Of a stretch of 64,000 nt of DNA, positions 9,734-52,800 are shown one piece after another. A program made the position numbers and the translations under genes. Within the stretch, counting starts at the first letter, position 1. Every line of letters starts with the position of its first letter. Source of the stretch: Ruminiclostridium cellulolyticum H10 (GTDB lineage Bacteria; Bacillota; Clostridia; Acetivibrionales; DSM-1351); assembly GCF_000022065.1 (NCBI RefSeq), contig NC_011898.1:2782501-2846500 (forward strand), written 5' to 3'. Below the pieces are notes generated by a model that saw only the letters and a list, made by a program, of their open reading frames with translations, was not told the DNA's origin and did not search any database.

Positions 9734-9772
9734 ATATTTCACCATCCTTACTGTTAAGAATATATAAGAGAG

Positions 9773-9809: not shown

Positions 9810-9823
9810 TTTTAAATCTTTTT

Positions 9824-11213: not shown

Positions 11214-11227
11214 CTTCCGCCTCCTGA

Positions 11228-12616: not shown

Positions 12617-12867
12617 TTGTTTTCACTTCCCTGCTTTTCGGCAGATTTAGCAGCCGTTATTTTTGTACTAGTTCTAATGTTAAATACCTTCTATATTTAT
12701 TCTACACATTTAATCCATATAAGTCAATTAATGGCAATTATTTTATTAATGACACACCTAATTTACCTCAATCAGAAATTATTTTAAAAGTTTTCCTCAT
12801 AAGTCCTATTTCTTCTAGTGCCTTTAAGAATCCCCAAAAATAAAAGTAGGCAAGGTGGTTATAATCC
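12617..12867. other. Upstream region of the RiPP operon
   Basis: No gene is seen. It contains the RiPP promoter and, at its right end, one arm of the hairpin split by the insertion sequence. Confidence 0.6.
12699..12727 (-). promoter_or_regulatory. Sigma-A promoter of the RiPP operon
   Basis: On the minus strand TTGACT (12722-12727) and TAGAAT (12699-12704) are separated by exactly 17 nt. The first start codon is 83 nt downstream of the -10 box. Confidence 0.75.
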
Positions 12868-12930
12868 TGATGTGACCCCAAAAAGTTAGACTTTATTGCG
12901 TAACAGATTTTGATATTTGTTACGCATTTT

Positions 12931-13731
12931 TTATGCAGCCAAGAGCCTAAGTCTGTATTGAGCAGGACTCAGCCATCCTAGTTTCTCTTTAATTCTTTGC
13001 TCGTTATAATACTTTATGTATCGTTCTATTGCATTTTTTAAGTCCTCGTAGCTGTAGTACACAACTCCATAGTATATCTCTTGTTTTAGCAGACCAAAGA
13101 AGTTTTCCATTACTGAATTATCATGGCAGTTACCTTTTCTAGACATACTTTGAAAAATCCGTTCTTCTTTGAGACGATGTGAGTATACTTTCATCTGATA
13201 AGCCCAACCTTGATCTGAATGGAATGTTCTTCTATAAGGACAATCAGATGTGATTTCAATAGCTTTATTAAGTGCACTCATAATATTTACTGCAGATGGA
13301 TGTTTATCAATACCGAAACTTACTATTTCACTATTGTACATATCCATAAAAGGATCCAGGTAAAGCTTATGCATTGTCATATGTCCCTTGGAATCAACTT
13401 CGTAGTATTTAAACTCTGTTGTATCAGTTGTAATCTTCTGGTGTGGAATATGAGTATTGAAACGTCTACGGATTCTGTTAGGTGCAACTGTTCCAACTTT
13501 TCCCTTATAAGAACTGTACTTGCGACTTTTTCTGGTAAAAGAAGTAACTTGAAGACTAAGCTTTTGCATAATTCGCTGTACTTTCTTCTTGTTTACTATA
13601 AATTCTTGATTCCTGAGTTCACCATACATACGACGATATCCATAATTCTTATTATTCTCATGAATCTCCAATATCTTATCTTCCAGTTCTTTGTCTGGAT
13701 TCTCTCTATCAAATCTTTTCTGCCAATACAT
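12931..13731 (-). CDS. IS3-type transposase OrfB, DDE integrase core
   Basis: 266 residues from the first Met, but the frame is open further upstream (KAARIVYSLRGDFKLKDILA before Met), so it is normally made as an OrfAB fusion by a -1 shift at AAAAAG (13815-13820, minus strand). HTH_21-like region NYGYRRMYGEL, then the rve/DDE core: TTDTTEF, HSDQGW, and NFFGLLKQE with N-rich spacing (CHDNSVMENF). All three acidic residues are present, so it may be active. It ends with the usual YNxxRIKEKLGWLSPAQYR block. Confidence 0.9.
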   Translation of the reverse strand: MYWQKRFDRENPDKELEDKILEIHENNKNYGYRRMYGELRNQEFIVNKKKVQRIMQKLSLQVTSFTRKSRKYSSYKGKVGTVAPNRIRRRFNTHIPHQKITTDTTEFKYYEVDSKGHMTMHKLYLDPFMDMYNSEIVSFGIDKHPSAVNIMSALNKAIEITSDCPYRRTFHSDQGWAYQMKVYSHRLKEERIFQSMSRKGNCHDNSVMENFFGLLKQEIYYGVVYYSYEDLKNAIERYIKYYNEQRIKEKLGWLSPAQYRLRLLAA

Positions 13732-13772
13732 ATATGTTGCTTTAGGAAAGCCTACTACTGCGAGAATGTCTT

Positions 13773-14369
13773 TTAGTTTGAAATCTCCTCGGAGGCTGTA
13801 GACGATTCTCGCTGCTTTTTCAGAAGAGTTTCCTCCTCTAAACGCAGCCTCCTCAGTTCTTTTAAATAGGCATTCTCTATACGTAACTTTAAAAGTTCAT
13901 CTTCAAGCTGTTTAACATATTCAGCACTAGTATCAACAATAATTGATTCAGTTGCATTGGTATCTGTTACTTTTCTTTTTAGGCTCAATGGTTTCTTCCG
14001 ACCTTTCTTCTTAGGTCTCAAAGCATCCGGACCAGCAATCCGAAAATCGTTCACCCACTTAACAATCAGTGCAGGATTACGAATTCCTTCTTGAATAGCT
14101 AACTCTTGATATGAAACCTCACTTGTTAAATATAATTCTACAACATGAAGTTTATATTCGAAAGAGTATTTTTTTTGTTTGCGAGAACGCACCAAACCTT
14201 CGTCGCCAAAAGCATTATAATTAAGGACCCATTTCTTAATGTTGTTAAACGAGGGGATATCATACTGCTTTGCAAGATACTCGTATCCTCCTTCTCCATT
14301 TAGATAGGCTTTTACAATTTGTTTCTTAAATTCAAAAGAATATTTAGCCATAAAAATACCGACCTCCAA
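13773..14369 (-). CDS. IS3-type OrfA, DNA-binding part of the transposase
   Basis: 198 residues with two helix-turn-helix units (about 1-55, and 60-110: YSFEYKLHVVELYLTSEVSY) typical of IS150-type OrfA. A Leu/Ile heptad region (about 145-185: VKQLEDELLKLRIENAYLKE) works as a leucine zipper for multimerisation. OrfA binds the terminal repeats. The start lies just inside the 14406 end of the element. Near its end, CTGAAAAAGCAG offers the slippery site that leads to OrfB. Confidence 0.88.
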   Translation of the reverse strand: MEVGIFMAKYSFEFKKQIVKAYLNGEGGYEYLAKQYDIPSFNNIKKWVLNYNAFGDEGLVRSRKQKKYSFEYKLHVVELYLTSEVSYQELAIQEGIRNPALIVKWVNDFRIAGPDALRPKKKGRKKPLSLKRKVTDTNATESIIVDTSAEYVKQLEDELLKLRIENAYLKELRRLRLEEETLLKKQRESSTASEEISN

Positions 14370-14458: not shown

Positions 14459-15262
14459 TTAATTTGAGTATTTACAATCCTCTTTAAGTATTTCAATACA
14501 CTCATCAAGTCCTTTTCCTTCATGTATTATCATACTTATAAGTTTAATAAGCAAGCCCGGATTATTATACTCAAAAATATTCCTTCCTATGGCCACTCCC
14601 GCTGCTCCTGCCAAAATTGAGTTATTTACCATGTTAAGCAGCTTTTCAGGATTGTTCATATTTTCACCACCTGCTATTAGCACAGGAATTTGAACATTCT
14701 TCACCAGCTCGCTTATTTCTTCCATAGTTTCAGGACACTCAACCTTTACAATGTCAGCCCCAAGCTCTTCTGCAAGACGGGCAGTGTGTGCGATATCCCC
14801 TGGTTTTCTTTGGTTTCTCTTAGCATATACCATGGCAAGCAGAGGCATCCCCCATCTTACGCAGGACTCGGATACTTTGCCAAAATCCTTGAGCATAGAG
14901 CTCTCATCTGTGTCCCCAAGATTAACGTGAATTGAAACCGCCTCAGCCCCCAATTGCACTGCTTCTTCAACAGAGCCTACAAGCACCTTACAATGGGAAT
15001 CATTATTGAATTTTGTCGAAGCTGATAGATGTAGTATGTAATTTCCATCCAAAAAAATTTCATCCTTACAAAGTCTTGTTAATATACCCTTATGAAGAAC
15101 AATCCCATCTGCACCACCACTTATAATCTGCCCTATGAGTTTTCTGTAATCTCCGAGACCTGTAATGGGCCCCAATGTCACTCCATGATCAATTGGAACA
15201 ATACATGTCTTTTTGCATGAAGGTTTAATCAGCCGTGCCAATCTTAAGGCTTTACCATCCAT
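14459..15262 (-). CDS. DeoC-type aldolase, GriI/ADH-synthase homologue
   Basis: A 267-residue TIM-barrel class I aldolase of the archaeal-AroA'/GriI type. Features include PIDHGVTLGP near the start (DHG loop), VSIHVNLGD, DIVKVECP (likely Schiff-base Lys) and AGAAGVAIGRNIF (phosphate loop). Family members join aspartate semialdehyde to a C3 or C6 sugar-phosphate-derived unit: 2-amino-3,7-dideoxyheptulosonate in archaeal aromatic synthesis, or the C7 precursor of 3-amino-4-hydroxybenzoate (GriI). The next upstream gene is the matching cyclase, so the pair most likely makes 3-amino-4-hydroxybenzoate for the NRPS/PKS product. It is the last gene of the operon; ATG with GGGAG upstream. The GriI role is by family and context. 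Confidence 0.8.
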   Translation of the reverse strand: MDGKALRLARLIKPSCKKTCIVPIDHGVTLGPITGLGDYRKLIGQIISGGADGIVLHKGILTRLCKDEIFLDGNYILHLSASTKFNNDSHCKVLVGSVEEAVQLGAEAVSIHVNLGDTDESSMLKDFGKVSESCVRWGMPLLAMVYAKRNQRKPGDIAHTARLAEELGADIVKVECPETMEEISELVKNVQIPVLIAGGENMNNPEKLLNMVNNSILAGAAGVAIGRNIFEYNNPGLLIKLISMIIHEGKGLDECIEILKEDCKYSN

Positions 15263-15314
15263 AATGAAATCGATCTCCCTTTTATAAATTATTATAACCT
15301 ATTTGTAAATTAAT

Positions 15315-16412
15315 TTACTTTTCCTGAATTGACTCATCAATTTTCAAGCCTACATGCCTGCCACCTTGGCATACATATGTAAGGAGTTCTTCACCTTCCT
15401 TTATTGTTGAAGCATTCCTGACCTCTCCATCGGCTCCGAAAATCCTTATATGCCAATCATCCTGTACCATCGTATTAATACGCTTTCCATCCACCTCAAC
15501 CTCAATCTTTAATAATGGCCTTTTCTCTACTTTTACCCTTCCGACCACTACCTCCCTTGTGTTGCCTAAAGTATCCACACACAGCAGTTTACTTCCGCCC
15601 TTTAATTCCGTAATGTACGAGGTTTCACCTTCGGGTGCCCATACATAGGAATGTACGGCACCTGCATTAACTCTGAAGGGACGTAGTTCCATATATGGTA
15701 GGAAGTGAGTTTCTGAACTGACCAAAAGCCCCCCTTCTGAAGTTGAGCCGATGAGCATTCCTTCATTTTCTTTCAATAGTCCGGTGGTGTCTATACATGC
15801 CCTGTAGCCAATTCCAATATGCAACACCTCGGTAACCCTACCTTTAGCCAGCTGAATTTTAGATGTTCCCATTTTTTCTATAAATGTGTTTACTTTGATT
15901 ATTTCACTATGATCCTCATTACTGAACACAACCCCATCGCTGCCCACTTCCATTACCCCGAAAGCCAACTCCATATCTTGGCAGCTGTTAACTATTTTTA
16001 AGACCTTGGTATTTTGGGATTGGAGCTTTGCTACCAGCAGTTCCAAGGGTATATTTGTTGTGTCAGAAAATTCTGCTACAACATAGTCGAAATTTGAACC
16101 AGCCTGCCATGCTTCATCCATACTGTTTCTATCAAATATCCGGTGTAAAAGGGCGGTCTTGAAACCTTTTTGAACTGATTTCTGCAGTAACTGCCTATCC
16201 GCTGACAAAACTATGTGCTCCTTGTTTAAATCCTCCATGTCTTCTTCGCTATTTATTTCAATAATCAGATTCATTTTATGTGGTGGTGTTATGGTATCCA
16301 ACATACCCCTTTTAATTAGTAAGTTCTCAAAATTTAGGATATAAATCATATTTAAAATAGCTTCTTCGTTTTTTAAATTCCTACCATCAAACCAAATCAT
16401 ATCTTTTTTCAT
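15315..16412 (-). CDS. 3-dehydroquinate synthase II family enzyme, GriH homologue
   Basis: I choose ATG 16412 (residue 23 of the longest frame), because AAGGGG lies 8 nt upstream and the longer form would overlap the carrier protein gene; the product has 365 residues. MKKDMIWFDGRN opens the NAD-binding part, and the C-terminal half (GSTSEGGLLVSSETHF, RPFRVNAGAVHSYV, CQGGRHVGLKI) is diagnostic of archaeal-type dehydroquinate synthase II/GriH. AroB' cyclises the aldolase product to dehydroquinate; GriH converts it to 3-amino-4-hydroxybenzoate. Pairing with the GriI-type aldolase and the lack of other shikimate genes favour the second role. It lies in the middle of the operon's tail. Confidence 0.8.
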   Translation of the reverse strand: MKKDMIWFDGRNLKNEEAILNMIYILNFENLLIKRGMLDTITPPHKMNLIIEINSEEDMEDLNKEHIVLSADRQLLQKSVQKGFKTALLHRIFDRNSMDEAWQAGSNFDYVVAEFSDTTNIPLELLVAKLQSQNTKVLKIVNSCQDMELAFGVMEVGSDGVVFSNEDHSEIIKVNTFIEKMGTSKIQLAKGRVTEVLHIGIGYRACIDTTGLLKENEGMLIGSTSEGGLLVSSETHFLPYMELRPFRVNAGAVHSYVWAPEGETSYITELKGGSKLLCVDTLGNTREVVVGRVKVEKRPLLKIEVEVDGKRINTMVQDDWHIRIFGADGEVRNASTIKEGEELLTYVCQGGRHVGLKIDESIQEK

Positions 16413-16461
16413 AATTTTAACCCCTTGTAAATGTTGTTTTTTAGCACCTGTTTTCGAAATA

Positions 16462-16716
16462 TCATATTTTGCTTTCAACGTAGTCCACGATATCTCTTAT
16501 AGTAGAAAACTTGGCAAAGTCAAGATGCTCATTATCAAATTCAAACCCAAATTCATTTTCAAGCATCACCACTAATTTTACAAATTCTACCGAATTCAAA
16601 CCAAACGTAGCCAAAGTCTCATCCACTCTGATATTATCGGCAATATCCGAAGCCTTGTAATTTTCCTTTATAACCTTTTTTAATCTCGTTTCCACCATTT
16701 CTGACATAACCCTCAT
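16462..16716 (-). CDS. Free acyl/aryl carrier protein
   Basis: 84 residues forming a four-helix carrier protein with FGLNSVEFVKLVV; Ser42 is the phosphopantetheine site. The start may be residue 1 or residue 4 (ATG ATG-spaced; AAAGGA lies 2 or 11 nt upstream). It lies between the last PKS and the GriH/GriI pair. It may carry the aryl amine, serve as a partner for the terminal BtrH-like domain, or carry a starter unit made elsewhere. None of these can be chosen from sequence. Confidence 0.85.
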   Translation of the reverse strand: MRVMSEMVETRLKKVIKENYKASDIADNIRVDETLATFGLNSVEFVKLVVMLENEFGFEFDNEHLDFAKFSTIRDIVDYVESKI

Positions 16717-16774
16717 ATTCCTTTCTGAGATATAGATTTTTATATTTTTTCGGGTTCCCCACCCTGTTTACAAA

Positions 16775-19700
16775 CTATATTATGGATATATTCTTTAGTG
16801 CTTCAAAAAACTCATCACTGGTTTTACTTATGTTATTAATATTGTTAACTACCGTATTATCAAGTTTTATACTCCTCCCCCTTATCAAACTGGCAGCACA
16901 GATATTAATCAAAGCATTTGATGTCTCCAATATATCGTTGGACATACCTATAAGCTCTTTATGCTCTTTATCAAAGAAGTCTTTGAGTGTGCTGATTAAC
17001 AATTCCTTGCTTCCAAGAAAAAAGTACAACTTATTTAGTCCCTCAGCATCAAGTTGCTTGTCATCACTTGTCATAATATTTCTGATAAAGATTAAATCTT
17101 CGCTCTGCAGTTCATTTTGCGAAATATATTCCAATAATCCGGTTATCTTATTTGTAATCCCACCAATACCCACATCCTGATGCTTTTCCATTACAAGTAT
17201 TTCCATACCATTTGTGTTAGAGTAAATTTGTTCCAAAATATCAAAAGTGGTATAAAACCGTCCATAATCTATAATCTTTTCTCCATTTTGCATCAGGTGG
17301 TTGTAATCTATAACGGAATATAACCTTTTACTACTATCATAACCGTTAATCACAGCAAGATGGTTGGTGTGTTTGCTTAAATAGAAGGAAGAGTAGAATG
17401 TAAAGTATTCGTCAAAACAAACCAAAATAGGCTTGCCTTTATCTATATAGCTGCAGATTGTTGTATGTAAACCTTCCAAAGTACGAACCTTCTTTACACT
17501 AGCTCTTAAACCAAAGCTTTCAAGAAGTTGGTTCTCTACAAGATTACCGTTATAAAAGGTTTGTTTACTGTAAATATCTCCTAAATATCCCTCTAGATTA
17601 AAACATCTCTTTATACCAAGAAATAATTTGAACAGTCTTAACAATTCTTTGTTCTGCTGCCCTAGCAGTAGTCCAAAGCCTCTGTCCAGGCAATTCATTT
17701 GCCGCCACATTAATCCGCTGATCTGATTGACTATGGATTCCTCAATTTCTATTTTACCTATTTGTGGTAAAATATTTACCGTTGCTGCACGTTCCGTACG
17801 TACTTCTACATTATCCCCGTCATTCACCGAGATTTTCTCTCTAGCCGACTCAGGATACTTTTCACTGATAAACATAGCCAAATCGACAATGCTGAAATGT
17901 TCAAATAAATTATTTATATCAATTTCAACATTTAACTGTTCTTTAAGTTTACTTGCCATATTTATGGATAACAACGAGTTTCCGCCCAAATCATAGAAAT
18001 CATCGTGAATGCTGAGCTCACCTATTTCCAGAATGGCCCCCCATATGTTCCCTATTAGCTTTTCAAGCTTGGTATAGTTTCCGGACACTCCCCCTTTGAG
18101 TTTAACAGTGGGTAATGGACTCTCTTTTACAGAAATTAAGCTATTACTACTTACTGTACTTTCCAATTCAGCTGCTATATCCTTTTCAAGCTTGAAAAGC
18201 TGTATATCTTCTGATATACCAGACAGCATCTCGAAATCAAGTTCCCCTGCAATTACATGGGTTGATTCGGATTCTAAAATAAGCTCAAAATCACTTAATG
18301 CCTGCTCTACGGAAATCGGTTTAAATAAGGATTTGTTTTTATCCGCCTTGTATTCAGCAGCCATCCCGGTATCCTTCCATGCCGGCCAACTAATGGATAC
18401 AGTCCTTTTTCCCTGAGTACTTCTCCACTGTGCAAATGAGTCCATAAATGCATTTGCTGCTGCGTAATCCCCCTGACCGGGTACGTTTAGTATAGACATT
18501 ACCGAGGAAAATGTAACGAAAAAGTCAATTTCATCCTCCCTTGTAACATTATCCAGCATGAAGGTACCCTCTATTTTGGGAGACAACACTTTGCTTAAAT
18601 CAGCTTGTGACTTACCTGAAATAAGGCCTTCTCCGGCTAATCCCGCACAATGGATTATTCCATTGATATTATTGAATTTATCCCTTATTTCATTAATAAC
18701 ACCCATCATCTGATCCTTTACCGATATATCCCCTGGATAGCTAAAAACAGCCGTTCCATCAGCTTCAATACTATTTATTGCATTAATTCTTTGGCATAAT
18801 TTTGTATCAGCACCCGCTTTAAGAATTTCCGCCCATTCATGACGTTCAGGCATAGAGCTGCGATTTACCAGTGCTATATTTCCTGCCCCTTTTTGGGATA
18901 GATGTCTTGCAATTTCAAGGCCTATCCCACCAAGGCCTCCTGTAATTATGTAAACACCTTGACTTTTAATATCAATCCCTTTTCGGCTACCACCGCCCAT
19001 TTCCAATCTTGCAAACTCCTGAATGTACCTTTTTCCATCTCTAATTGCAGTCAAATACGATGTATTGTACCCATACACCTCACTGACAAGGCTGTTGGCA
19101 TCTGTGTCTGTATCAATGTCAACACCTCTGCACCTTATATTCTCGTATTCCGCAGATATTACCCTGCCCAGAGCAAATAATGCGGCATTGCCGGGATTGG
19201 CTTTTTTCTCCTGCTTGTCAACGCTGAAAGTATTCCGGCTTACCAATACCATCTCTACTGACTGCCCGGATTTCAGCTTCGCAAAACTTTTTACCATATA
19301 AAACAAACTGTATACGCCTGTTATATGGCTCAATTCAAGTTCTTCAGGACTATCTCCGTATTGTTTACTTCTATTGCCAAACAGATGGATTATTTTTGAT
19401 ATCCTCCTGTCACCCATATCTTCAAAAAGCTTATAATAATCTCTTTCGCATCCTGATATGGTATAGCTCAGTTCATTCTTTTTTTCATAGGATTCCCCAA
19501 GCATTACTTGAATAACATCTATTCCCTTGTCCGTCAGATTAGAGGCTAGACCTTCGCCAATGCCTTCAGCATCCATGAATATAGCTACTGTTTTATTTGT
19601 CAGGTTCATACTGCTTTTTGGTGCTTCGGTACATGGTACCCATCTGATTTCGTAAAGATTGTGTTTGTTTTTTTCCGGCGTAACCGCCTTTGTTTTCTCT

Positions 19701-21649
19701 CCTTTTTCGTTGTCTATCCAATACCTGTTTCTCTCAAAAGGATATGGAGGCAGATGAACTGTTCTGCCCCCTGTACCCTCATAAAACTTATTCCAGTCAA
19801 CATCTGCACCTATAGTATAAAGCCTGCATAATTCTTCTAATTCATGAACTTCGCCCTGCAAAAATGCCTTCAACTTTAAATCTGCTTTCTGTGATATTTC
19901 CCTTCTCTCGTGCTCTGTTATATCATTTGCTTCATTCAAGCCTTTTTTTGAAGATACTATCTTGTGTTCACCAAAATAAATATTCTGTACATGAGTTTGT
20001 TTTATGTCAATTACTTCCCTAAGTTGAATAAGCTTTTCCCTTAGCTCGTCCATACCTCTTACAATAATGGCTGCCCTGTAATTATAATGTCCCCTGCCCA
20101 CGGCTGTAGTGCTGCAAATATCCTTCAAAGAAGGCACTTCCGGCCTGTTGATAAATTTCAAATATCTTTGTACCAGCTCTTTCATAGAAAATTGGCTTTT
20201 AGCCGAGAGTGTAAAAACCATAGGTCTGTGGGATGCTGTCTCTGCTCTAATTTCCTTTTTTACTTCCTGTATAACCACATGGCAGTTTGTACCACTGAAG
20301 CCAAAGGAACTCACTCCGCATAGTCTTATATTCTGGTCTGCTTCCCAAAACGTCGTCTTGTCATTTACATAAACAGGTGCATTACTAAAATCTATATACC
20401 TGTTTGGATATTCAAAATTCAAGGTAGGCGGAATAACTTTTTTATTAATTGCTAAAACGGTTTTAATAAGCGATGCAATTCCAGAGGCACCTACCAGATG
20501 GCCCAAATTTGTTTTTACCGATCCAATTCCGCAAAATTGATTTTTTTTTGTAAACTTCCTGAAGGCTCTGCTTAAACCCTTAATCTCAATGGGATCCCCC
20601 AGAACAGTACCTGTTCCGTGGGTCTCAATATATGAAATATTTTCTGGATTTATCCGTGCTTCCTTCCAAGCCTTTATCAGCAAATCTTCCTGTGCTTCTG
20701 CCTTTGGAGCTGTAATCCCGTTTGATGCACCGTCATTATTAACAGCACTTCCCTTGATAACCGCATAGATTTCGTCCTTGTCCTCCATTGCCTTTTTCAA
20801 GGGTTTCAGTATTACAACACCTACTCCCTCTCCCCAGACGGTACCACTGGCCTTATCATCAAAAGCTCTGATGGTGCTGTCATTGGATTCTACAATCCCC
20901 ATCTCATTATTTTCAATGGGCTTGTAGATTATATGTATACCTCCGGCAATTGCCATCTGACATTTACCTGTTTTTAAAGCATTACAGGCTTCATGAACAG
21001 CTACCAGCCCCGAGGAACATGCAGTATCAATAACCAATGCCGGACCATTGAGGTTTAAAATATAGGATATTCTGCTTGCCAGGATTCCTGACCAAGAACC
21101 TGTTATAGCCAGCGGATCCCTATCTTGTATCATGTATTTATACGGTGAACCCCAGGTATGGTCATTCCCCGTATATACACCTGTGTTGGAGCCGTAAAGC
21201 CTGTCTCCCCCGTATCCTGCATCCTCTATGGCTTCCCATGCCGTTTCAAGAAATACTCTCTGTATTGGGTCCATATATTTGGCTTCTTTGGGTGAAATAC
21301 GAAAAAATGCGGCATCGAACTTGTCGATTTCTTTTATATATCCTGCCTTGCTGTAGCTACTGTCGGTACCTTCAGTTATTTCTACAGCAAAACTACCTCT
21401 GTCCGGTGGAATTTTGCCGATGCACAGCCTACTGTCCATGAGGTTTTCCCAATATTCCTCAAGATTCTCCGAACCCGGAAACTTGCCTGCCATACCTATA
21501 ATTGCAATTTCATCATTCTCAATATGCTGCTTGTTCTTTTGCAGTTCCGATAACAATACCACAGAATCCTGAGGGTCAAGCTTCTTGTCTGCTACCAGTT
21601 TATATATAATATTGTTAGCCGTTTTCACAGTCTGCACCAATCCCTTCAA
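16775..21649 (-). CDS. Final PKS module KS-KR-ACP with BtrH-like release domain
   Basis: 1624 residues. Short N-terminal helical docking region (1-45). KS at about 46-480 with Cys near 208 (DTACSSG), HGTGT and NLGHL. No AT; the KS-AT linker ends YPFERNRYW. KR with GGLGGIG near 908 and FSSVMSILNVPGQGDYAAAN. No DH is seen, so a beta-hydroxy group is expected. ACP with DLGGNS near 1221. Residues about 1300-1500 resemble the BtrH N-terminal acyltransferase family (C39-like fold): Cys1320 (QMNCLDRGFGLLLG), His1430 (TNHLAVINGYD), Asp1448 (YSVIDYNH), plus DKGKPILVCFDEYF. BtrH moves an acyl group from a carrier protein to an amine. The tail after 1500 is helical. No thioesterase GxSxG is seen. TTG start with a weak RBS; GTG at residue 5 or 8 is possible. 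Confidence 0.85.
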   Translation of the reverse strand: MKGLVQTVKTANNIIYKLVADKKLDPQDSVVLLSELQKNKQHIENDEIAIIGMAGKFPGSENLEEYWENLMDSRLCIGKIPPDRGSFAVEITEGTDSSYSKAGYIKEIDKFDAAFFRISPKEAKYMDPIQRVFLETAWEAIEDAGYGGDRLYGSNTGVYTGNDHTWGSPYKYMIQDRDPLAITGSWSGILASRISYILNLNGPALVIDTACSSGLVAVHEACNALKTGKCQMAIAGGIHIIYKPIENNEMGIVESNDSTIRAFDDKASGTVWGEGVGVVILKPLKKAMEDKDEIYAVIKGSAVNNDGASNGITAPKAEAQEDLLIKAWKEARINPENISYIETHGTGTVLGDPIEIKGLSRAFRKFTKKNQFCGIGSVKTNLGHLVGASGIASLIKTVLAINKKVIPPTLNFEYPNRYIDFSNAPVYVNDKTTFWEADQNIRLCGVSSFGFSGTNCHVVIQEVKKEIRAETASHRPMVFTLSAKSQFSMKELVQRYLKFINRPEVPSLKDICSTTAVGRGHYNYRAAIIVRGMDELREKLIQLREVIDIKQTHVQNIYFGEHKIVSSKKGLNEANDITEHERREISQKADLKLKAFLQGEVHELEELCRLYTIGADVDWNKFYEGTGGRTVHLPPYPFERNRYWIDNEKGEKTKAVTPEKNKHNLYEIRWVPCTEAPKSSMNLTNKTVAIFMDAEGIGEGLASNLTDKGIDVIQVMLGESYEKKNELSYTISGCERDYYKLFEDMGDRRISKIIHLFGNRSKQYGDSPEELELSHITGVYSLFYMVKSFAKLKSGQSVEMVLVSRNTFSVDKQEKKANPGNAALFALGRVISAEYENIRCRGVDIDTDTDANSLVSEVYGYNTSYLTAIRDGKRYIQEFARLEMGGGSRKGIDIKSQGVYIITGGLGGIGLEIARHLSQKGAGNIALVNRSSMPERHEWAEILKAGADTKLCQRINAINSIEADGTAVFSYPGDISVKDQMMGVINEIRDKFNNINGIIHCAGLAGEGLISGKSQADLSKVLSPKIEGTFMLDNVTREDEIDFFVTFSSVMSILNVPGQGDYAAANAFMDSFAQWRSTQGKRTVSISWPAWKDTGMAAEYKADKNKSLFKPISVEQALSDFELILESESTHVIAGELDFEMLSGISEDIQLFKLEKDIAAELESTVSSNSLISVKESPLPTVKLKGGVSGNYTKLEKLIGNIWGAILEIGELSIHDDFYDLGGNSLLSINMASKLKEQLNVEIDINNLFEHFSIVDLAMFISEKYPESAREKISVNDGDNVEVRTERAATVNILPQIGKIEIEESIVNQISGLMWRQMNCLDRGFGLLLGQQNKELLRLFKLFLGIKRCFNLEGYLGDIYSKQTFYNGNLVENQLLESFGLRASVKKVRTLEGLHTTICSYIDKGKPILVCFDEYFTFYSSFYLSKHTNHLAVINGYDSSKRLYSVIDYNHLMQNGEKIIDYGRFYTTFDILEQIYSNTNGMEILVMEKHQDVGIGGITNKITGLLEYISQNELQSEDLIFIRNIMTSDDKQLDAEGLNKLYFFLGSKELLISTLKDFFDKEHKELIGMSNDILETSNALINICAASLIRGRSIKLDNTVVNNINNISKTSDEFFEALKNISII

Positions 21650-40818: not shown

Positions 40819-43800
40819 TTAAATCATCCTTTCGAATACAATATTAATTAAATTTATATACTTGCCTATTAATTCTTCAATTTTGTGTTTTTCTATTCTT
40901 GCTGCATTATACTCTGTAGTAAGAGAAATAACGTTTTTATCAATTTCGGGGTTTATGATAATATCGTATATCCTGCAATCTGCCATACCCCTAGAGTTTT
41001 CACTGCTAAACAGCATTGTTGCAGTGTCTTTTTCTTTATTCGGAGCTACGGTTTTCAACATATCGGTATCATATGAATTTTGTGTATCTTCACACAAGTC
41101 GCTCACTAATGTGAACAAGCTATCCAATTCATCAACTTCACCTATATTCATACCTAAAGGAAGAATCCTGTTTTCGTTATCCGTTATTGTATGAACTACT
41201 ATTCTTTCTTCTTCAGAAACCTGATAAAGAAGATAGAAATATAAAGCTAGCAGGATTTCCTTCAATCCTTGTCCCGAATCTAAAGAGAAGTTGGTAATTT
41301 TATTACTCAAATCACTTGTAAAGGAATATTTGAAAGCTTTATTTTCATATTGTTCGTGCATACTGCCGGTAAAATAATCTTGGGGTAATCGAGTTGCCTC
41401 CAATTCCAATTTATTAACGGCCTTTTTGTCATCCTGAGATATGAATTCTGAAAGCTTTGCTATAGTATTGTGTATGAAAAGTTTTGAAACATTAATTTTA
41501 CCCGGATAGTGTTTTTCCAGTTCTTCATGCATTCTTACCAGTAAAATTGAGTTTCCTCCAAGTTGAAAAAAGCTGTCATTTATACCTATCTGATCACATT
41601 TGAGTATACTTTTCCATATTTCTGCTATTTTCTTCTCAATCTCCGAATTTGCTTCCTTGTACTCTGAATCAATATTGGGACGGGCTGTGCCGGCAGCGGG
41701 CAAAGCTCTGCGGTCTACTTTTCCATTGGGTGTCAACGGTATTGAAGCAAGTCTGACATATATACCGGGAATCATATAGTCCGGCAAATCCCTGCCTATG
41801 TGCTGCATTATTTCAGAAACAGTTATTTCCTCAGATGAAACGTAGTAGCAGATAAGCTGTTTGTTTGAGAACTCATCCTCTTGTGCTATTACAACACACT
41901 CATTAATCAGATTATATTTTAATATGCATTTTTCAATTTCGTCTAATTCAATTCTGTAACCCCTGATTTTTACCTGATTATCTATTCTGCCCATAAAAGC
42001 AATGCTTCCGTCAGGCATCCACTTTGCAAGATCCCCCGTTTTGTACAGTCTTTTTCCGGGAACCAGTTCACTTGAAACAAACTTCTCTTTTGTCAACTCG
42101 GATCTGTTCAGATACCCTCTTGCCAGGCTGTCTCCACCAATACAAACCTCTCCGGCAACACCTATTGGCTGAAGGTTATCTCCATTCATAATTAGTATTT
42201 GCGTATTTGCAATGGGTCCTCCGATACTTACACAGGAATTCTTCGTCAAATCCTTTATAGCTGACCACACCGTGGTTTCTGTAGGCCCGTACATATTATA
42301 TATTTTACCTTTGTATACTTTCCTCAACTCACGGAGTAATGTTTCTGGAAACGCTTCACCACCGATCATGACTTGTTTTACACTATTAAAACAGCTAAGA
42401 TTTTTGAGCTCATTCATTAGTATCTGAAGTGTGGAGGGTGTCATCTGCAGCATATCTATGTTTTTACCGGTAATCAAACCTCTTAACATTCTCGGATCCT
42501 TCTGATGATCTTCATCCGCAATCACTACCTTTAATCCATGGCACAGCGGTAACAGGGTTTCCAAAACAAAAATATCAAAGGATATGGTAGTCAGAGCCAG
42601 AATGGAACTTCCTTTTTCAATTCTTATCTTATCTGTTACTCCCGTCATAAAGTTGCAAACTGCATCATGACTTATCATAACTCCCTTGGGTTTTCCTGTT
42701 GAACCTGATGTATACAGTACATATGCTAAATCCTTTGGATTATTTATGTTTGGCAGATTTTCTCCGCTTTTTTGATTTATGCTCCCATGAGCAAGGTCTA
42801 TAACTTCCCCGTGAAAACTGATTCCTGAATTGAGATTACTATTTGCAAGCAGGATATGTGCGTTACTATCCTCCAAAATAAATCTTAAACGCTCTTCAGG
42901 ATATTCAGGGTCTAGAGGAAGGTAAGCGGCGCCTGATTTAAGAACACCCAGTATTGCAGCAAGCATTTCTAATGACCTTGATACCAGTATTGCAACAAGG
43001 CTGTCTCTTTGGACACCTCTGTCTCTTAGAACTTCTGCAATTCTATTTGCTCTGGTGTTTAAATCCATGTACGTTATTTCTTCACTATTGCAAATGGCTG
43101 CGATAAAGTCTGGATTTTGTATAACCTGTTCTTCAAATAGTTCATGAATCGTTTTGTTTTTTGGATAATCTGCTTTCGTATTATTAAACTCATACAGAAT
43201 CTGTCTCTTTTCAGTGTCACTTAATAAACTTACTTCCGTGATGGGTGTATCAAGGTTTAAGGTTAATGCCTTAATAATATTTTTAAGATGTTCAGCCATC
43301 CTCACAATCGTTTCTTTTCTAAACAACCTTGTACAGTATTCCATAATGAAAATAAGCTTTCCGTCGTCCTCCTTAACTTCAACCGTAATATCGAATTTAG
43401 ATGTTCGGTTATCCATTCCGTAGGGCATAATTGACAGTCCATCAACAACCCTCTCGGATATATTCATATTCTGCATGGTGAACATGGTATCAAACAAAGG
43501 ATTCCTGCTTAAGTCCCTATTTAAATTCAATTTATTTATGAGTACGTCGAATTGATATAATTGATTTTCGTACACCTGTATTGTATTTTCTTTTACATCG
43601 CTCAGGAACATCCCCAACGTCTTATTTCCGTCTACGTTATTTCTCATGGCAATAGTATTTGCGAACATGCCTACCACATTTTCCAATTCAGTTTGTACTC
43701 TACCTGCAATCGGTGAACCTACTATAATATCGGACTGACCCGAATATTTTGACAAAAGAATATTGTATGCAGAAAGCAGTAGCATAAACAAGGTTGTACC

Positions 43801-46800
43801 GGTTTTATTTGCTGTTTTCTTTAACAACTGTAAAAGTTCACCATCAAGCTCAAAGCTTAAAGTGTCTCCTTCAAAGCTTTGTGTAGAAGGCCTGGTATAA
43901 TCAGTAGGAAGGTTAAGCAGGGGCAATTCACCCTTAAAGTAATCCAGCCAGAACTCTTCTTGTTTTTTTATAATATCTGTTTTTAACAGTTCATTCTGCC
44001 ATGTTGAAAATTCCTTGTACTGTACTTTTAGCTCACGTAATTCCTTTCCACAATATGCGTCAATAAACTCATTTACCAATATTCCTATTGATGTGGCATC
44101 TGATATAATGTGATGAATATCATATAACAAAATATGCTTGTCAAGATCAATTTTAATCAGAGCTACCCTCAGCAGAGGAGCTTTGGATAAATCAAAGGGT
44201 TTTACAAACTCTTTAAATATTTCTATTATCTCGTCTGTGCTCTCCTTCGTTCCAGGTACTTTTTCCACTTCAAGGAAGGTTACCTTTAAGTCAATTTTAT
44301 CCTTAACTATCTGAACTAATTCTCCATTGACAATACTAAAAGCCGTTCTTAGTGATTCATGCCTCTGAACCAGTTTATTAAAGGCCCTTTCAACCTTCTC
44401 TCTGTCCAGTACTCCATTGATTATTGCCGCACCGGGAATATTGTATGTAGTCTTTGCATCTTCAATCTGATTAAGTATAAACAAACGTTTTTGAGCAGAA
44501 GATGCCGGGTAGTTTTCTTTTTTGCCAACGGGCTTTATGGGTTTGTAGTTTTCTTTGACAGAGTCCGTAATAAGTTTTGCCAGTTCACGAATTGTAGGGT
44601 AGCTGAATACTTCTCCGAGTTTGACTTCAACCTGGAATGCTTTATGTATCCTGGATACTAGTGAAGTAGCTTTTAATGAATGTCCTCCCAACTCGAAGAA
44701 ATTTTCATTCACACCTATTTTTCCTATTTCGAGAATCTCACTCCAAATCTCAGTCATTCTTTCCTCTACTTGGTTTGTGGGAGGTTCATATGCTGCTTCT
44801 TCCTTCACATCAACATTTTTGATAGACAGGGCTTTCCTGTCAACTTTTCCGTTTGGTGTATGAGGAATACTTTCCACAGGGTAAAGCAGTGAAGGGATCA
44901 TGTATTCCGGAAGTTTACTCTTTAACATCAACTTAAACTGCTTGTTTTCTATGACCTCTTCATTCTCAGGTACATAAAATACAACTATGGTATTTTCCTG
45001 ATTTGGTTTTTCCAGAACTATTGCTGCACATTCCCTGATACCCTTCAAGCCACCAACTACAGATTCAATCTCTGTCAGTTCTATACGCATACCACGAATT
45101 TTGACCTGGGTATCTTTCCTTCCAAGGTGTTCTATGGTACCACTTGGTAATAATCTGGCAAGATCCCCGCTTTTGTAGGCAATAACCTCTCCCGTTTCGG
45201 GATTCCTTTCAAATTGATGGTTTGTCTTTTCATCCAAATTCCAATACCCTTGTGACAGATAGTGACTGTGATAAACCAACTCTCCGCACTCATATATACC
45301 CGCAGCCTTATTATCGTCATTTAGCAGTTGTATGCTGACTCCTTCCAATTCATAGCCTATAGGCACAGTCCGCGTATTCACCTGGGTATTTTTATCTACC
45401 AGATAGAAGGTCGCAACTAGTATTTCCGAGGCACCGAACAAATTTACAAATATACAGTCGTCGCTGAAAAGTAATTTATATTCCTCAATATCACTACTAT
45501 ATACAACTTCACCGCCCAAAATAATTAGCCGTGTATCAGAAATACGTTTTGTTTTGTCAATGGATTTAATAAAATACCTGTAAATCGAAGGGACTGTGTG
45601 GAGTATTGATATACTGTTTTCCTCAATCCAATTTGACATATTTTCAATACTACCCTTGTTTTTAAGATCGTATGGGTATATTCCTGCACCATTGAGAAGT
45701 GCACTGAAAATATCAATAGCTGCGACTGTATGACTATATGATGTTGTTAGTCCTAGCCTGTCAGCATGGCTAATTAAAAGCTCTTCTGCATAGTTCCCCA
45801 CAAGTTCCATTATGTTTTTGTGGCTTTGCATTACTCCTTTTGGTTTTCCGGTAGTACCTGACGTATATAATATGTAAGCAGTCTGCTCTGGTTCAATAGC
45901 TATTTTCGGATTATTTGCAGGAGAAATTAAATCTACTTTATCAATATTGATAAGATAAACTTTCCTGTTCAAAATATGAACTAATTCCTCTGCATATTTC
46001 AGGTTTTTATCATTTGTTACAAGAATTTCGGCCCCTGAATCTTTAAATATATCAACCAGTCTCTCCTCCGGGTATGCAGGATCAAGTGGTACATAACTCC
46101 TTCCTGTCTTCAGAACTCCAAGTATACCGATAATCATATCAGCACCGTGTTCAAATAATAATGTTACCCGGTCATTACTTTTAGATTTTTTAAGGATAAT
46201 ATTGGCAATATTATTTGCACTATCATTCAATTCTCCATATGTAACAAGCCTGTCATGAGTCTTTACCGCTGTACTTTCCCTGTGCTCCTCTACTTGCTTT
46301 TCGATACTCTCTACTAGAGTTTTGTGTTCTTTTATTGTGCCGCTTTTCTCAGGCCCATTATTCTTCAGGACTATGGGATTCCTTTTATTTACTATGGATT
46401 CCCTGCTAAATATATAATAGTCCCTTATTAATTTCTCAGGCTCATCTGCAATAATACCCAGTAGCTTGACATACTCTCCCATAATATATTCTATAGTTGA
46501 GCTTTTAAAAAGGCTGGTTCTGTAATTGCAATAAAATTTCAACCTTTCATCTGTTTCACTTGCATATAATACAATATCAAACTTGGCTACATTGTTCTTT
46601 ACCTCATAGGGATACAGATTAAAATCTGTTTCGTCCGACATGTAATTATTATCGGAATCATTCATGTTGTAAAAATTCAGTACAGTATCAAACAGGGGAT
46701 TCCTGCTCAGATCTCTCTTTATTCCAAGCATATCCAACAGCAATTCAAACTGAAAGTCCTGGTATTCAAAGGCTTCTAATGAATTTTTCCTTACTTCCTG

Positions 46801-49800
46801 AAGAAAATCCATGAATGTTCTGTTTTTTCCGGGGTTACTTCTGAGTGCAATAGTATTTATAAACATCCCCACTGTATTCTGTATATCTGCATGTTTTCTT
46901 CCTGCCGAAGGAACACCGACTATGATATCATCCTGCCCGGTTAGTTTTGAAAGAAGTACGTTATATGAAGACAGCAGAATCATAAACATGGTTGTGTTGC
47001 TTTCCGATGCTAAGTTTCTGATTTTTGATGTTGTAAATTCATCGATTTCAAATTCATATACTTCACCCTTAAAGTCCATTATAGGTGGTCTGGGATAGTC
47101 TATGGGCAGATTCAGCACAGGTATCTCACCCTTAAAGGTTTCAAGCCAGTAGCTTTCCTGACCTTTCATTATTTCTGACTTAAGGAGCTTGTTCTGCCAT
47201 ACAGAAAAGTCCTTATATTGAATTTTTACAGGAGGAAGATCCTTACCTTTATAAAGTGCAAACAAATCTTTCAGAAGAATATTAACGGATGTACCGTCAG
47301 ATATTATATGATGCATATCCATTATCACAACATGCCTTTTTTCCTCCAAGGGTATCAAACCTATCCTTATAAGTAGAGCTTTACTAAGATCAAAGGGACG
47401 TATGAAACCTGTTATCTTGTTGTCCAAGTCCTCTGATTCAACATCATTATTCTTAATTATTTCAAGACCAAATTCAACGTCCTTGTGAACCAGCTGGCAC
47501 GGCTCCCCATTTACAACCTCGAAGGAAGTCCTTAATATTTCGTGCCTTTGTAATAGTTCCTTTGCAGCACTTTCGAGCTTTCCAATATCCAAGTTTCCTT
47601 CTATTAAAACTGCTCCGTATATATTGTAGCTGGTTTGGGTATCTTCAATCTGATTGAGTATGAACATTCTTCTCTGGGCTTGAGACATTGGATAATATTC
47701 TCGTTCCGGCTGAACCTCTATTACATCATATACTGCTTTATTTTCTTTCTGGTTTATATAATTTGCTAATTGTCTTATTGTAGACATGGTGAAAATATTG
47801 GTAAGTGATACTTCTGTATTAAACTCCTTATTTATTCGTAAGGACAGTATCATTGCACTTAGTGAATTACCACCAAGATCAAAAAAGTTCTCAGTTACAC
47901 CTAAAATATCTGTATTTAGTATTTCCTTGAATATATCCGCTAATCTCTCTTCTAGCTCATTTTGTGGTTTCTGTCGTTCGGTTTCCGTCAGAGAAATTCT
48001 GTCAGGCTCCGGTAAGGCCTTTCGATTAATTTTGCCGTTAGGGGTCAGAGGCATCTTTTCTATTTGTACAAAACGGGACGGAATCATATAACCAGGTAAT
48101 GATTTTTGCAAGTAATCTCTTAATTCAGTTATGGATAGTCCGGTATCTGAAACAATATAAGCACATATATATTTTCCGCCTGTACTATCCTCCTTGGCAA
48201 TAGCAACTGCCTCCCTGATTGCAGGATGGCTCAAGATGGATGCCTCAATTTCACCCATTTCAATTCTATATCCTCTTATTTTAACCTGGTTGTCCACTCT
48301 GCCTAGAAATTCTATGTTTCCCTCCTGCGTCCACTTTGCCAAATCACCTGTACGGTATACCTTTCTACCAGATATACCTTCACACTCAATAAATCTCTCC
48401 TTGGTCAAGCCCGGGTCATTATAATACCCCCTTGTCAATCCTATGCCTCCAATGCACAGCTCTCCAACCATTCCTTGTGGAACAAGTTTTTGATTTTTAT
48501 CCAAAATATATATTTGTACATTATCTATGGGCTTTCCAATCGGGACAGCTGTTTCCTGCTCAATTATATTATTATCAATCCTATAAAAAGAAGCAATATC
48601 TGTACATTCTGTTGGGCCATAAGTGTTTACAATATCCGCACTGTATGCCATTGACTTTCTCCAAGGCAACAGTTTTCCCATATTTATAGGCTCCCCTCCC
48701 AGGAAAACTCTCGAAAGCGATTGGAGTCTAAGAAATCCTGAGTCTGCATTAAAGTCTATCAACGGATAAAATGCACTTGGGGTACAATTAATCATTGTTA
48801 CATGCTCTTTATTTATTACCTCCGACATACGTTCATAATCATACAATCCCGGGGAGAATATGCAGAGACATCCTCCAGTAACCAGAGTACTGAAAAAATT
48901 CTTTTGTGCCAAGTCAAAACTTGCCGGGGCAATAATCAAATTACAATCCTTTTCTCCAATGTCAAATTCTCTTACAAACCAATTCAAAAGATTCACAAAT
49001 GAATGACTCTTTACCATTACCCCCTTTGGGTTCCCGGTTGAGCCCGAGGTGTATATTACGTACATCAGTCTCTCAGGGTTATACTCAAGATTCAGATTTG
49101 TAACGGGCAGGTTGTTATTATCCAACACTTCACGCACAGCTATTGTTTCGGTATTTTCAAGGTACATATCCTCCGAAATTTTCTTCCCGGTGAGAAGCAT
49201 GGAGGTATTTGAGTTATTGATAAGAAAATCTATTCTCTCTTTTGGGTAATCAGGGTCAATTGGCAGGTAGGCTCCTCCTGCTTTCAGGATTGCCATGATG
49301 CCGATGACAAGCTCCATTGATCGTTCAACCATAATTCCTACTACAGAATCTTCTCTGACACCTTTTTCTATCAGATACCACGCAATTCTGTTTGACTTTT
49401 CGTTTAATTCATGATACGTCAATTGTTTTCCTTCAAATATCAATGCAATATTATGAGGCGTTTTCTGCACCTGTTCTTCAAAAAGCTGATGTATTCCACT
49501 ATAAAACGGATACTCACGTTTAGTACTATTAAGGTCGAATAAGAGATGTCTTTTTTCTTCTGTTGTCAGTATATCTATATCTGATAGCCTTATTTCAGGA
49601 TTCAAAACAACTTGATCCAGTATTTTGGTAAAATGTCGAGTAATTTTTTCCGCGGTTTCTCTCTTAAACAGTTTTGTACAGTATTCAAGAGAAAAGTGTA
49701 TTACTTGCCCATCGTCAAAAGCATTTAGTGAAAGGTCAAATTTAGTCTGTCCATTGCTGATATCATAGGGAAATAGTTTAAGATTTTCTAACTCAATTTC

Positions 49801-52800
49801 CTCAATATCATTGTTGAAGGAAAACATTGTATCAAATACAGGATTTCTGCTTGTATCTCTGTGTAAATTCAAATTATCAACAAGTTCTTCAAACTGATAA
49901 TCCTGATTATCGTATGCCTCCAGACAGCTTTCCTTTACCCTCTCCAGAAACTCTCTGAATGTACTTTCACTATCTATAGTATTTCTAATAGCAAGAGTAT
50001 TTACAAATACTCCTACAATATTCTCCAAGTCAGAATATGTTCTGCCAGAGACAGGAGTTCCTATAATAATATCCTCTTGCCCCGAATACTTTGAGAGCAG
50101 TACATTGTATGCAGTAAGTAATACCATAAAGAAAGTTGCCTTTGTACCTTCTGCCATAAGTTCCAGTTTTCTCTTGATATTATTATCAATATTAAATTCT
50201 ACTTTGTCTCCCTCATAACTCTTAACAGACGGTCTTGGAAAATCTGTCGGTAAGTTAAGTACAGGAATTTCACCTGAAAATTTATTTATCCAGTATTTCT
50301 CTTGCTTTAGTATCTCGCCTGATTCAAACAATTTGTTCTGCCACTCAGAAAAGTCCTTATATTGAAATTTCAGTTCAGGCAGTTCTTTTCCTTCATATAG
50401 TTGTAAGAACTCCTTTATAATAATATTAATAGATAATCCATCAGCAATTATATGATGCATATCAATTAACATAAGGTGCTTACTATCCGCCAATCTAATT
50501 AATCCTACCCTGAATAACGGTGCTTTCGCCAGGTCAAAGGGTTTTATAAAACTACCAATGGCCTTTAACAAGTTATAATCCGGCTGTATTTGTTCTATTT
50601 TAAATTCAGCACTAGCCGTAATTCGTTGGACAGGAACTTGTCCATTAAATTCGAAGACTGTCCTAAATGCATCGTGACGATTTATTAGTTCTGAAAATAT
50701 TTTTTCCATGTGTGAAATGTCAAGGTCACCTTCTATAATAAACGCTGCTGGCATATTGTAGCTGGTGTTTACTTCATCAAATTGATTTAATATGAAAAAC
50801 CTCTTTTGAGCCGAAGACAGGCAATAATAATCTCTTTCCTCTACAGGTTTCAAATTTATATATAAAGCCTTGCTTTTGCTGTCTATGTATTTAGCAATAC
50901 CCTCTATATTGGGAGTAGATAGTAAAATACTTATGGGAACTTCTACGTTTAAATCTTTAAAAATCCTGGAAGACAGAGTTATTGCCTTGAGAGAATGCCC
51001 CCCTAATTCATAAAAGTCATCTTTTATACCTAATTTTTCTATTTGAAATACATCCTGCCAGATTGGAACCAGTGACTGTTCTGTATTGTTTCTTGGTTCT
51101 ATATATTCTGTTCTCTTCTTTAAGGTATCCTTAGGATTTGGTAGTGCGTTTTTATCTAATTTCCCATTTATTGTAAGGGGCATTTTTTCAATTTGTACAA
51201 AATATGTGGGTATCATATACTCAGGAATTTTGTCTGAGAGATGCTCTCTTAATTGTGTTACTCCTAACTTCTCATTTGCTGTGAAATAAGCACATAAAAC
51301 CTTATTCTCAGAATCTTCTTTCCTGTCAGTTACTACAGCTTCCCTTATATTTTCATGTTTCTGTAGCTGAGCCTCAATTTCACCCAGTTCTATTCGGTAT
51401 CCTCGTATTTTTACCTGACCGTCTTTTCTTCCGATAAATTCAATATTCCCATCCGGCAGCCACCTTCCCAGATCCCCGGTTTTATACATTTTTTTATCAA
51501 CATTAAAAGGATTAGGTATAAAACGTTCCGAAGTCATTTGTTCCCTGCTCAGATATCCTACTCCCACACCTGTACCGGATATATATACCTCTCCTATACA
51601 GCCCCGGGGAATCAGTTCTTGGTTCTCACCTAAAATATAAACTTGAACGTTTGGCATTGGCTTTCCAATAGGTATGATTTTTGAACCCGCTAAATCACTG
51701 GGGTTCAAGGTATAAAAGGTGGAATCAACACAACACTCGGTTGGCCCGTATACATTGGTTATTTCAGGAGTATTGCCTTCAAATCTGCTGTAGAATTTCT
51801 CTACAGTTGTGTAGTGTAGGGCTTCTCCTCCGATTATAAAGTGTTTGACCTTCATATTTTTAATATCTGAGGACGCATTCAGGGCAAGCCCGGCCAAATG
51901 GTTTGGTGTGCCGTCAGATATGTCTATTTTGTTCTCAATATAAAACCCTTCAAGCTTTTTGCCGTCAGATCTCACATCATCAGGTACTATATACAAACTA
52001 TGCCCAAACAAAAGTGATGTAAATATTTGTTGTACAGAAGCATCAAATACGAAAGGAGCTACAATAGCAACTTTCAATCTACCAATATATTTTCTGTATA
52101 TATTCAGCTCCAGGCCGTTCACAAGGTTTACAACGTTTTCCAAAGTTATCATTACGCCTTTGGGCTCTCCTGTGGAACCTGATGTGTATATTACGTATGC
52201 CAGGTCGTCCGCACCTCTCGAAATCAGAGGATTATCACAGGATGAATTATTAAATGCTTTAGAATTTAAATCTATGATAATTCCGTTATACTCAAGTTCG
52301 TGAGAATGTGTATTCTGAACAAGCACAGCCTTTGCATCGCTATCCGTCAGCATGTATTCAATTCTTTTGACAGGGTAGCTTGGGTCAATTGGCAGGTATG
52401 CACATCCGGCTTTTAATATCCCCATTATTCCTATAATAGTATCTGCTGATCTTCCGGAAATCAGACCGACTATATCACCTTTTTTCAGTCCTTTTTCAAT
52501 AAGCATTTGGGCTGCTTTGTTTGCTTGAACGTTTAGCTGCTTATATGTCAAACTCTTTTCACTGCATACTACCGCAGTATCCTCAGGCCTTATTGCTGCC
52601 TGTTCTTCAAACATATCAATTATTGTTTTTTTATTTTCAAATTTGTAATCCGTATTATTAAAGGCATTAAGCAGGGTATCTTTTTCTTCTTTATTCAGAA
52701 TGCTGAATAATCCAATCCTTTGATCAGGATTTTTGAGGCATTCCTCCAAGGTGGTCATAAAATAGTTATATATTCTTTTTACTGTGCATTCATTATAGAT

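Follow-up and report, generated by a model that had tools for sequence, protein, structure and literature searches.

An adenylation domain of the aryl-acid type and a GriI/GriH-like gene pair in the CcelD cluster of Ruminiclostridium cellulolyticum suggest 3-amino-4-hydroxybenzoate as an internal chain residue

The operon and its identity

The stretch analysed here, called the window, comprises 64,000 nucleotides (bases 2782501-2846500) of the single-contig genome (4,068,724 bases) of Ruminiclostridium cellulolyticum H10. It contains part of a polyketide synthase (PKS)/non-ribosomal peptide synthetase (NRPS) operon of 19 collinear genes separated by gaps of at most 58 bases. The 5' end of this operon lies beyond the right window edge, and the DNA there, which holds the upstream operon genes, is designated L002 and L003. 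The subjects of this work are the two genes that close the operon and are predicted to supply 3-amino-4-hydroxybenzoate (3,4-AHBA), and an NRPS adenylation (A) domain, A3, that is predicted to load this acid. The operon encodes nine A domains, seven of them inside the window, and one of these seven lacks the Asp at position 235. At the 3' end, four genes follow one another on the minus strand with gaps of 58, 49 and 52 bases, the GriH start being set at the ATG at 16412. They encode the last PKS with its BtrH-type end, a free-standing carrier protein, a GriH-like cyclase and a GriI-like aldolase. A first, sequence-only reading of this DNA had located all four correctly, and their Pfam matches are far from chance.

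Both published 'DKS3' primers used for quantitative reverse transcription PCR (RT-qPCR) in Clostridium cellulolyticum match the window exactly, at 25819-25839 and 25864-25883. Both sites lie in one ketosynthase (KS) gene (21671-26512), and two primers for other C. cellulolyticum clusters have no match in the window. The window thus represents cluster CcelD of Behnken and Hertweck. In PMC3250452, CcelD is listed as a trans-acyltransferase PKS/NRPS with three KS and reported, like the other clusters there, as silent or basally expressed. Pfam and motif searches yield six KS for the operon, which means that the published CcelD table is incomplete as a description.

The GriI/GriH-like pair

The last gene of the operon (14459..15262, minus strand) encodes a GriI-like aldolase that matches PF01791 (DeoC/LacD, E=2.1e-47) and reaches 289 bits against the NCBIfam model NF005556 of the ADH synthase subfamily (cut-off 241). 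In an alignment with the solved aldolase MJ0400 (2qjg, E=3.6e-63), D25, H26, Y146 and K173 are identical; we take these columns to be the catalytic positions of MJ0400-type aldolases. L-aspartate semialdehyde and dihydroxyacetone phosphate are the predicted substrates. The adjoining gene (15315..16412, minus strand) codes for a GriH-like putative 3,4-AHBA synthase of the 3-dehydroquinate synthase II (DHQS II) family (PF01959, E=6e-104). Its longest open reading frame (ORF) reaches 16478, and the likely start at ATG 16412 gives a protein of 365 aa. A sequence search of solved structures with GriH returned no match.

The pair shares its composition, an aldolase and a DHQS II-family protein encoded side by side, with GriI/GriH of grixazone biosynthesis and with BagB/BagC, CrxI/CrxH and ClxE/ClxB. 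According to PMC8697445, GriI and GriH of Streptomyces griseus form 3,4-AHBA from C4 and C3 metabolites. In contrast to grixazone-type pairs, the pair studied here ends a PKS/NRPS operon of an anaerobe, and it scores below the narrow 'exception' models BagB/FevI (203 of 500 bits) and BagC/FevH (235 of 750 bits). It most likely makes 3,4-AHBA, and does so for its own assembly line. This part of the sequence-only reading is supported, whereas the link that it had drawn from the acid to BtrH-dependent release is not.

An ordinary aroB gene and three DAHP synthases are present in the same genome, so GriI and GriH are not needed for primary aromatics. In addition, PF01959 is sporadic, with 3 of 11 genomes in the family and 8 of 58 in the order, and on these grounds primary metabolism was rejected as the role of the pair. 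In a sample of the phylum, PF01959 exceeds the cut-off in 19 of 398 genomes, 18 of which have no A3-type domain; a GriI-like neighbour is found in 17 of these 18. GriI/GriH alone is therefore not diagnostic of use of the acid in an assembly line. Three genomes with PF01959 matches below the cut-off (G120, G380 and G583; genomes are designated by G numbers) were left out of the counts. In a GriH tree, the protein from R. cellulolyticum groups with those of G004, G011, G023 and G027, apart from the other sequences of the phylum.

The adenylation domain A3

A3 belongs to an NRPS with four A domains (40819..53409, minus strand), whose specificity codes are DAQDIGVVD, DLKNFGTDI, TVIHIGLVA (A3) and DILQMGMVW. 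The first is presumably Gln-like and the last presumably Gly-like. The A3 domain itself (44836..46323, minus strand) carries Thr2561 (codon 45727..45729, minus strand) at the position that aligns with Asp235 of GrsA; the other eight of the nine operon A domains have Asp there. Where the motif FDxx is usual, A3 reads SYSHTVAAID. The other core motifs are kept, including the last (A10) lysine. A3 is part of a complete elongation module of condensation (C) domain, A domain and peptidyl carrier protein (PCP). Its condensation domain C3 (46420..47697, minus strand, motif HHIISDG) is predicted to acylate the amine of loaded 3,4-AHBA, which the carrier domain of the module (44569..44760, minus strand, LGGHS) would hold, and the condensation domain of the next module, C4 (43195..44520, minus strand, HHIISDA), would hand the aroyl group on to glycine.

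By its sequence, A3 is an A domain of the aryl-acid kind. This contradicts the earlier statement that the window holds no aryl-acid-activating A domain. A domains of the same type adjoin GriH in other genomes. The specificity of A3 for 3,4-AHBA is predicted from its genetic context. The sequence-only reading had suggested looking for an aryl-AMP ligase past the right edge. No stand-alone enzyme of this kind was found among the ORFs scanned there (L002, L003) or to the left of the operon.

Residue 235 in relatives of A3

The A3 core was searched in three overlapping samples. Nine of 58 genomes of the order match at E 1e-15 or better, seven of 391 genomes of the class match at 1e-20 or better, and in 398 genomes of the phylum the core was found in R. 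cellulolyticum alone. A narrow contig scan with two peptide patterns, which were too strict for absence to be counted, retrieved one A3 locus only, that of Acetivibrio straminisolvens (G023).

The Thr235 form occurs in four genomes: R. cellulolyticum, G011, G023 and G249, the last with two copies. Ala235 is found in G006 and G007, Gln235 in G029, Ser235 in G003 and, at an unrelated locus, in G004, and Asp235 in G014, G163 and four further copies of G249. Ala235 is also part of the code of A domains for 4-aminobenzoate. G027, whose A domain is cut by a contig edge, was left out of this count. PF01959 exceeds the cut-off in all four Thr235 genomes versus one of the seven others, namely G004 with a remnant copy (genome-level Fisher test, one-sided p=0.015; p=0.033 with R. 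cellulolyticum removed). In the A-domain tree, the Ala and Gln forms stand in two separate places, each among Thr forms. This fits A3-type domains that consume a benzoate and whose pocket tracks the supply. One relative has an unusual architecture: in G003:C30 (ORF 7349-13492; L039/L046), an A3-related A domain with Ser235 is interrupted by a ThiF/E1-type adenylyltransferase-like domain.

Gene neighbourhoods in other genomes

In G011, the Thr235 A domain is part of an A-PCP-BtrH protein whose gene ends 37 bases before GriH. G023 has kept this gene order with broken frames, and its Thr235 A-domain gene adjoins GriH. In both genomes, GriI overlaps a free carrier gene, and GriH adjoins BtrH-type genes. 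On C196 of G249, a Thr235 A-PCP is followed by GriH-GriI about 7 kb on. The contig of G027 starts inside an A domain and continues with PCP, C, A (DILQMGMVW), PCP, an epimerisation (E) domain and one more domain at the C terminus; GriH and GriI follow directly. Over 1,253 residues, this NRPS shares 48% identity with modules 3-4 of the R. cellulolyticum NRPS. The C-terminal domain in front of GriH-GriI looks like a papain-like release domain, although it matched no Pfam family.

Two related clusters are found in genomes in which the order search detected no PF01959 above the cut-off. G029 is syntenic with G011 (SIS, GT2, GalT, BtrH-2, A-PCP-BtrH-1). The A domain of this cluster carries Gln235, and its SIS protein is fused to a chorismate lyase domain (PF01947, 67.4 bits, cut-off 22, 1.8e-18), an enzyme type that yields 4-hydroxybenzoate. 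G007 contains a sister cluster, in which the first gene (49% identity), the Asn NRPS (58%) and the peptidase (55%) resemble those of R. cellulolyticum. Its C-A-PCP module is 44% identical to C3-A3-PCP3 and has Ala235. Also encoded in G007 are a BtrH-type domain in terminal position and a free carrier that is 43% identical to the one studied here.

At the same site as in R. cellulolyticum, G004 (C1, about 631-639 kb; L006) carries GriI (87%), GriH (94%), the carrier (82%) and the end of the last PKS (75%). The rest of the cluster has been deleted around an insertion element, so this locus is a remnant and provides no evidence on the use of the acid. A different GriH-GriI cluster with a stand-alone A domain beside GriH is present in a genome of the same genus (G009:C1; L011, 14415-17924). 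Four NRPS A domains of that cluster (DLYN...) are presumably Cys-like.

The free carrier protein and the BtrH-type domain

The free-standing carrier protein (16462..16716, minus strand; PF00550, E=8.7e-10) has homologues in G004, G007, G011 and G023. The last PKS (16775..21649, minus strand) consists, by Pfam matches, of KS, ketoreductase (KR), acyl carrier protein (ACP) and, at its C terminus, a BtrH-type acyltransferase domain (BtrH-2; 16778..17779, minus strand), which scores 34.3 bits (E=3.3e-8) in one scan and 36.6 bits in another against PF14399 (BtrH_N; cut-off 29.7). The C, H and D columns are conserved in all four BtrH domains aligned (R. cellulolyticum, G004, G011, G029). With a mean predicted local distance difference test (pLDDT) value of 50.8, the predicted structure of the domain was too poor for a structure search, and no credible match was obtained when its sequence was compared with solved structures. 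Its family membership supports a carrier-dependent BtrH-like acyltransferase as the putative chain-ending enzyme.

In PMC10318531, BtrH proper is described as an ACP:aminoglycoside acyltransferase. The domain studied here shares with BtrH of butirosin biosynthesis the papain-like family PF14399 and would likewise use a carrier-linked acyl donor. It differs in being fused to a PKS end, in having a second BtrH-like protein at the opening of the operon and in the absence of aminoglycoside genes from this operon. This second BtrH/C39-like protein (330 aa, L003:6296-7288) is encoded by the first operon gene. In the G007 cluster, its counterpart likewise comes first, whereas in G011, G023 and G029 it is fused to the C-terminal side of the aryl A-PCP.

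As G007 retains both the carrier and the terminal BtrH-type domain in the absence of GriH, neither needs 3,4-AHBA. Moreover, the fusion of a BtrH-type domain behind an aryl A-PCP in G011, G023 and G029 suggests that the acid is the likely acyl donor there and not the amine acceptor. Some functional tie may nevertheless exist, given the free carrier gene overlapping GriI in G011 and G023 and the BtrH-type or papain-like domains near GriH in these two genomes and in R. cellulolyticum.

Alternative explanations

In the sequence-only reading, free or carrier-bound 3,4-AHBA was the amine acceptor in the BtrH domain, which would yield a chain-end N-acyl aminohydroxybenzoate or, after ring closure, a benzoxazole. 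This idea is backed by the direct neighbourhood of GriI/GriH, carrier and BtrH-ending PKS, by the activity described for BtrH proper, by the clustering of GriI with the carrier and of GriH with BtrH-type genes in G011 and G023, and by the papain-like-looking domain just before GriH-GriI in G027. However, its premise fell with the recognition of A3, carrier and BtrH-type domain persist in G007 without GriH, and the A-PCP-BtrH fusions suggest the opposite polarity. Nor does the benzoxazole fare better: no Pfam match to a benzoxazole-forming amidohydrolase was found among the operon ORFs scanned, the N-terminal half of 60621-68147 being read by motif only, and this product was rejected. The closoxazole pathway of Clostridium cavendishii and Pyxidicoccus fallax, which draws 3,4-AHBA from the same enzyme pair (PMC12118335), differs in that it dispenses with an NRPS and relies on two AMP ligases together with an amidohydrolase, whereas the scanned operon genes include neither an amidohydrolase nor a stand-alone ligase. 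A role as chain-end acceptor is thus improbable. The same applies to a twofold use of the acid, once mid-chain via A3 and a second time at release, as acceptor or bound to the free carrier. The cluster has the parts for either use, and GriI has kept its carrier neighbour in G011, G023 and the G004 remnant, but the free carrier would have to be loaded, and no second aryl-type A domain or stand-alone ligase was detected in the operon or within 13 kb upstream.

Alternatively, A3 might activate another benzoate or a non-alpha-amino acid, and GriI/GriH might serve a different product. Substrates do vary in this clade, as it has Ala, Gln, Ser and Asp at 235, and work on closthioamide in the same species reportedly implies that 4-hydroxybenzoate is available. 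Against this, Thr235 is confined to genomes with GriH (4/4), and GriI/GriH close the very operon that encodes A3, which makes another substrate unlikely. Least credible of all is an archaeal-type shikimate entry (ADH synthase and DHQ synthase II) that came to lie beside the cluster by chance. NCBIfam names both proteins after that route, and PF01959 usually occurs without an A3-type domain in the phylum sample. Nevertheless, the genome has its own aroB and DAHP synthases, the pair is co-directional with 17 cluster genes at short gaps, and its GriH belongs to the small group formed with G004, G011, G023 and G027.

We therefore prefer, with a probability of roughly 70%, that 3,4-AHBA from GriI/GriH is loaded by A3 and built in mid-chain instead of serving as chain-end acceptor. 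Several points weigh against this proposal. The association of Thr235 with GriH is drawn from a small number of genomes and from two residue changes that arose independently. The second Thr235 domain of G249 is encoded on a different contig, where GriH is not its neighbour. The G029 assembly is a draft of 790 contigs, and as little as 1.2 kb separates the A domain from its contig end, which means that a GriH gene may have been missed. The grouping of GriI, carrier, BtrH-type genes and GriH in G011 and G023 is the sole observation that favours the grouping made by the earlier reader. Because the Thr235 A-PCP of G011 is fused to a BtrH-type domain, BtrH and not a C domain may move the aroyl group there. 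Finally, adjacency alone can mislead: in Streptomyces sp. CS057, an NRPS beside 3,4-AHBA genes proved to be uninvolved (PMC11429834). The link between A3 and GriH is stronger than the adjacency in CS057 because the A-domain type follows GriH across genomes, although it, too, is one of genomic context.

A proposed pathway

In the preferred scheme, GriI and GriH would make 3,4-AHBA, and A3 would activate it and load it onto the carrier domain of its own module. C3 would then join the growing chain to the amine of 3,4-AHBA, and C4 would pass its carboxyl group to glycine, so that the acid becomes an internal residue in front of glycine. Three PKS modules and another two NRPS modules would then extend the chain, and the finished product would leave the last ACP via the putatively papain-like BtrH-type domain, the acceptor of which need not be 3,4-AHBA. 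Here, the gene order, which was observed directly like the domain content, the missing Asp235 and the co-occurrence across genomes, is assumed to be the assembly order; the acid formed by the pair, the substrate of A3 and the directions of both amide bonds are likewise inferred.

The beginning of the chain is probably encoded upstream, in L002/L003. An NRPS of the order C-A-PCP-E has the code DLTKIGEVG, presumably for Asn, and an E-type motif HHLIVDGVSWR. A peptidase-transporter fusion of 1,032 aa with an ATP-binding cassette (ABC) part aligns in its peptidase with ClbP (chain 4e6x, 2.7e-57), including the motif HGG(S/Q)NPN. The long form of such peptidases, fused to a transporter part and roughly 1,100 aa in size, is the ZmaM-like kind according to PMC9889268. 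The combination of an Asn module with an epimerisation domain and a ClbP/ZmaM-type peptidase indicates that the product is probably made as an N-acyl-D-Asn prodrug. This cap would start the product, and the peptidase fused to the transporter part would remove it on export. The prodrug systems of zwittermicin, edeine, paenilamicin and colibactin likewise open with a module C-A(Asn)-PCP-E and have a peptidase-ABC fusion, whereas the rest of the assembly line studied here is unrelated to them in order.

Further genes of the operon and its surroundings

Upstream, L002/L003 also encode a KS-KR-ACP protein. A phosphoenolpyruvate (PEP)-synthase-like protein of 812 aa (L002:15972-18410) weakly resembles the prodigiosin ligase PigC and rifamycin phosphotransferase and may act as a ligase or as a kinase for self-resistance. 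The operon also encodes two separate B12-type radical SAM proteins (window 37652-39523 and L002:14273-15949), and one of them exceeds the cut-off of TIGR03975, a model for C-methyltransferases of ribosomally synthesized and post-translationally modified peptides (RiPPs), with 775 bits. Another NRPS (72054-77735 in extended coordinates, L002:8555-14236, minus strand) has an A domain with the code DGTITAEVA, presumably Tyr-like, that is split near its N terminus by about 600 residues; these include a region for B12 binding and a radical SAM stretch that resembles CxxxCxxC. A radical SAM enzyme inserted in an A domain is unusual.

A stand-alone PP-loop ATPase within the operon (53446-54552) is a relative of the N-acetyl sugar amidotransferase WbuX, with a score of 161 bits that lies below the cut-off. 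Since other members of the PP-loop superfamily form the thioamides of closthioamide or the nitrile of albicidin, the product may contain one of these groups. Directly downstream of GriI, an IS3-type transposase pair (window 12931-14369) separates the operon from CcpM, a radical SAM maturase of Cys-rich peptides (11228-12616), and its partner TIGR04066 protein (10083-11213).

Conclusions and perspectives

Internal aminobenzoates, GriI/GriH pairs and prodrug NRPS/PKS systems are each known separately. Their combination, in which an A domain with Thr235 builds 3,4-AHBA into the chain, was not encountered in the open-access full-text literature searched, and neither was such a product. Albicidin and cystobactamid contain 4-aminobenzoates as internal NRPS residues (PMC7966384). 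The assembly line studied here would resemble their synthetases in the internal position of an aminobenzoate, as predicted from its genes, and would differ in the residue, predicted to be 3-amino-4-hydroxybenzoate, and in Thr235.

A broader reading, towards which the balance tips only slightly, is that a clostridial clade of benzoate A domains shifts residue 235 with its supply genes, carrying Thr with GriI/GriH, Gln with chorismate lyase and Ala with neither; in R. cellulolyticum, this would go together with internal 3,4-AHBA, a D-Asn-capped prodrug and BtrH release. With Thr, Gln or Ala at a single pocket position, these domains provide a comparison set for how A domains read aminobenzoates. 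The acceptor question for BtrH-type terminal domains is now separate from the question of 3,4-AHBA. For a model cellulose degrader, the analysis proposes a specific substrate, open to testing, for one module of a cluster that is known but silent. If true, internal 3-amino-4-hydroxybenzoyl would be a new backbone element beside the 4-aminobenzoates of albicidin and cystobactamid.

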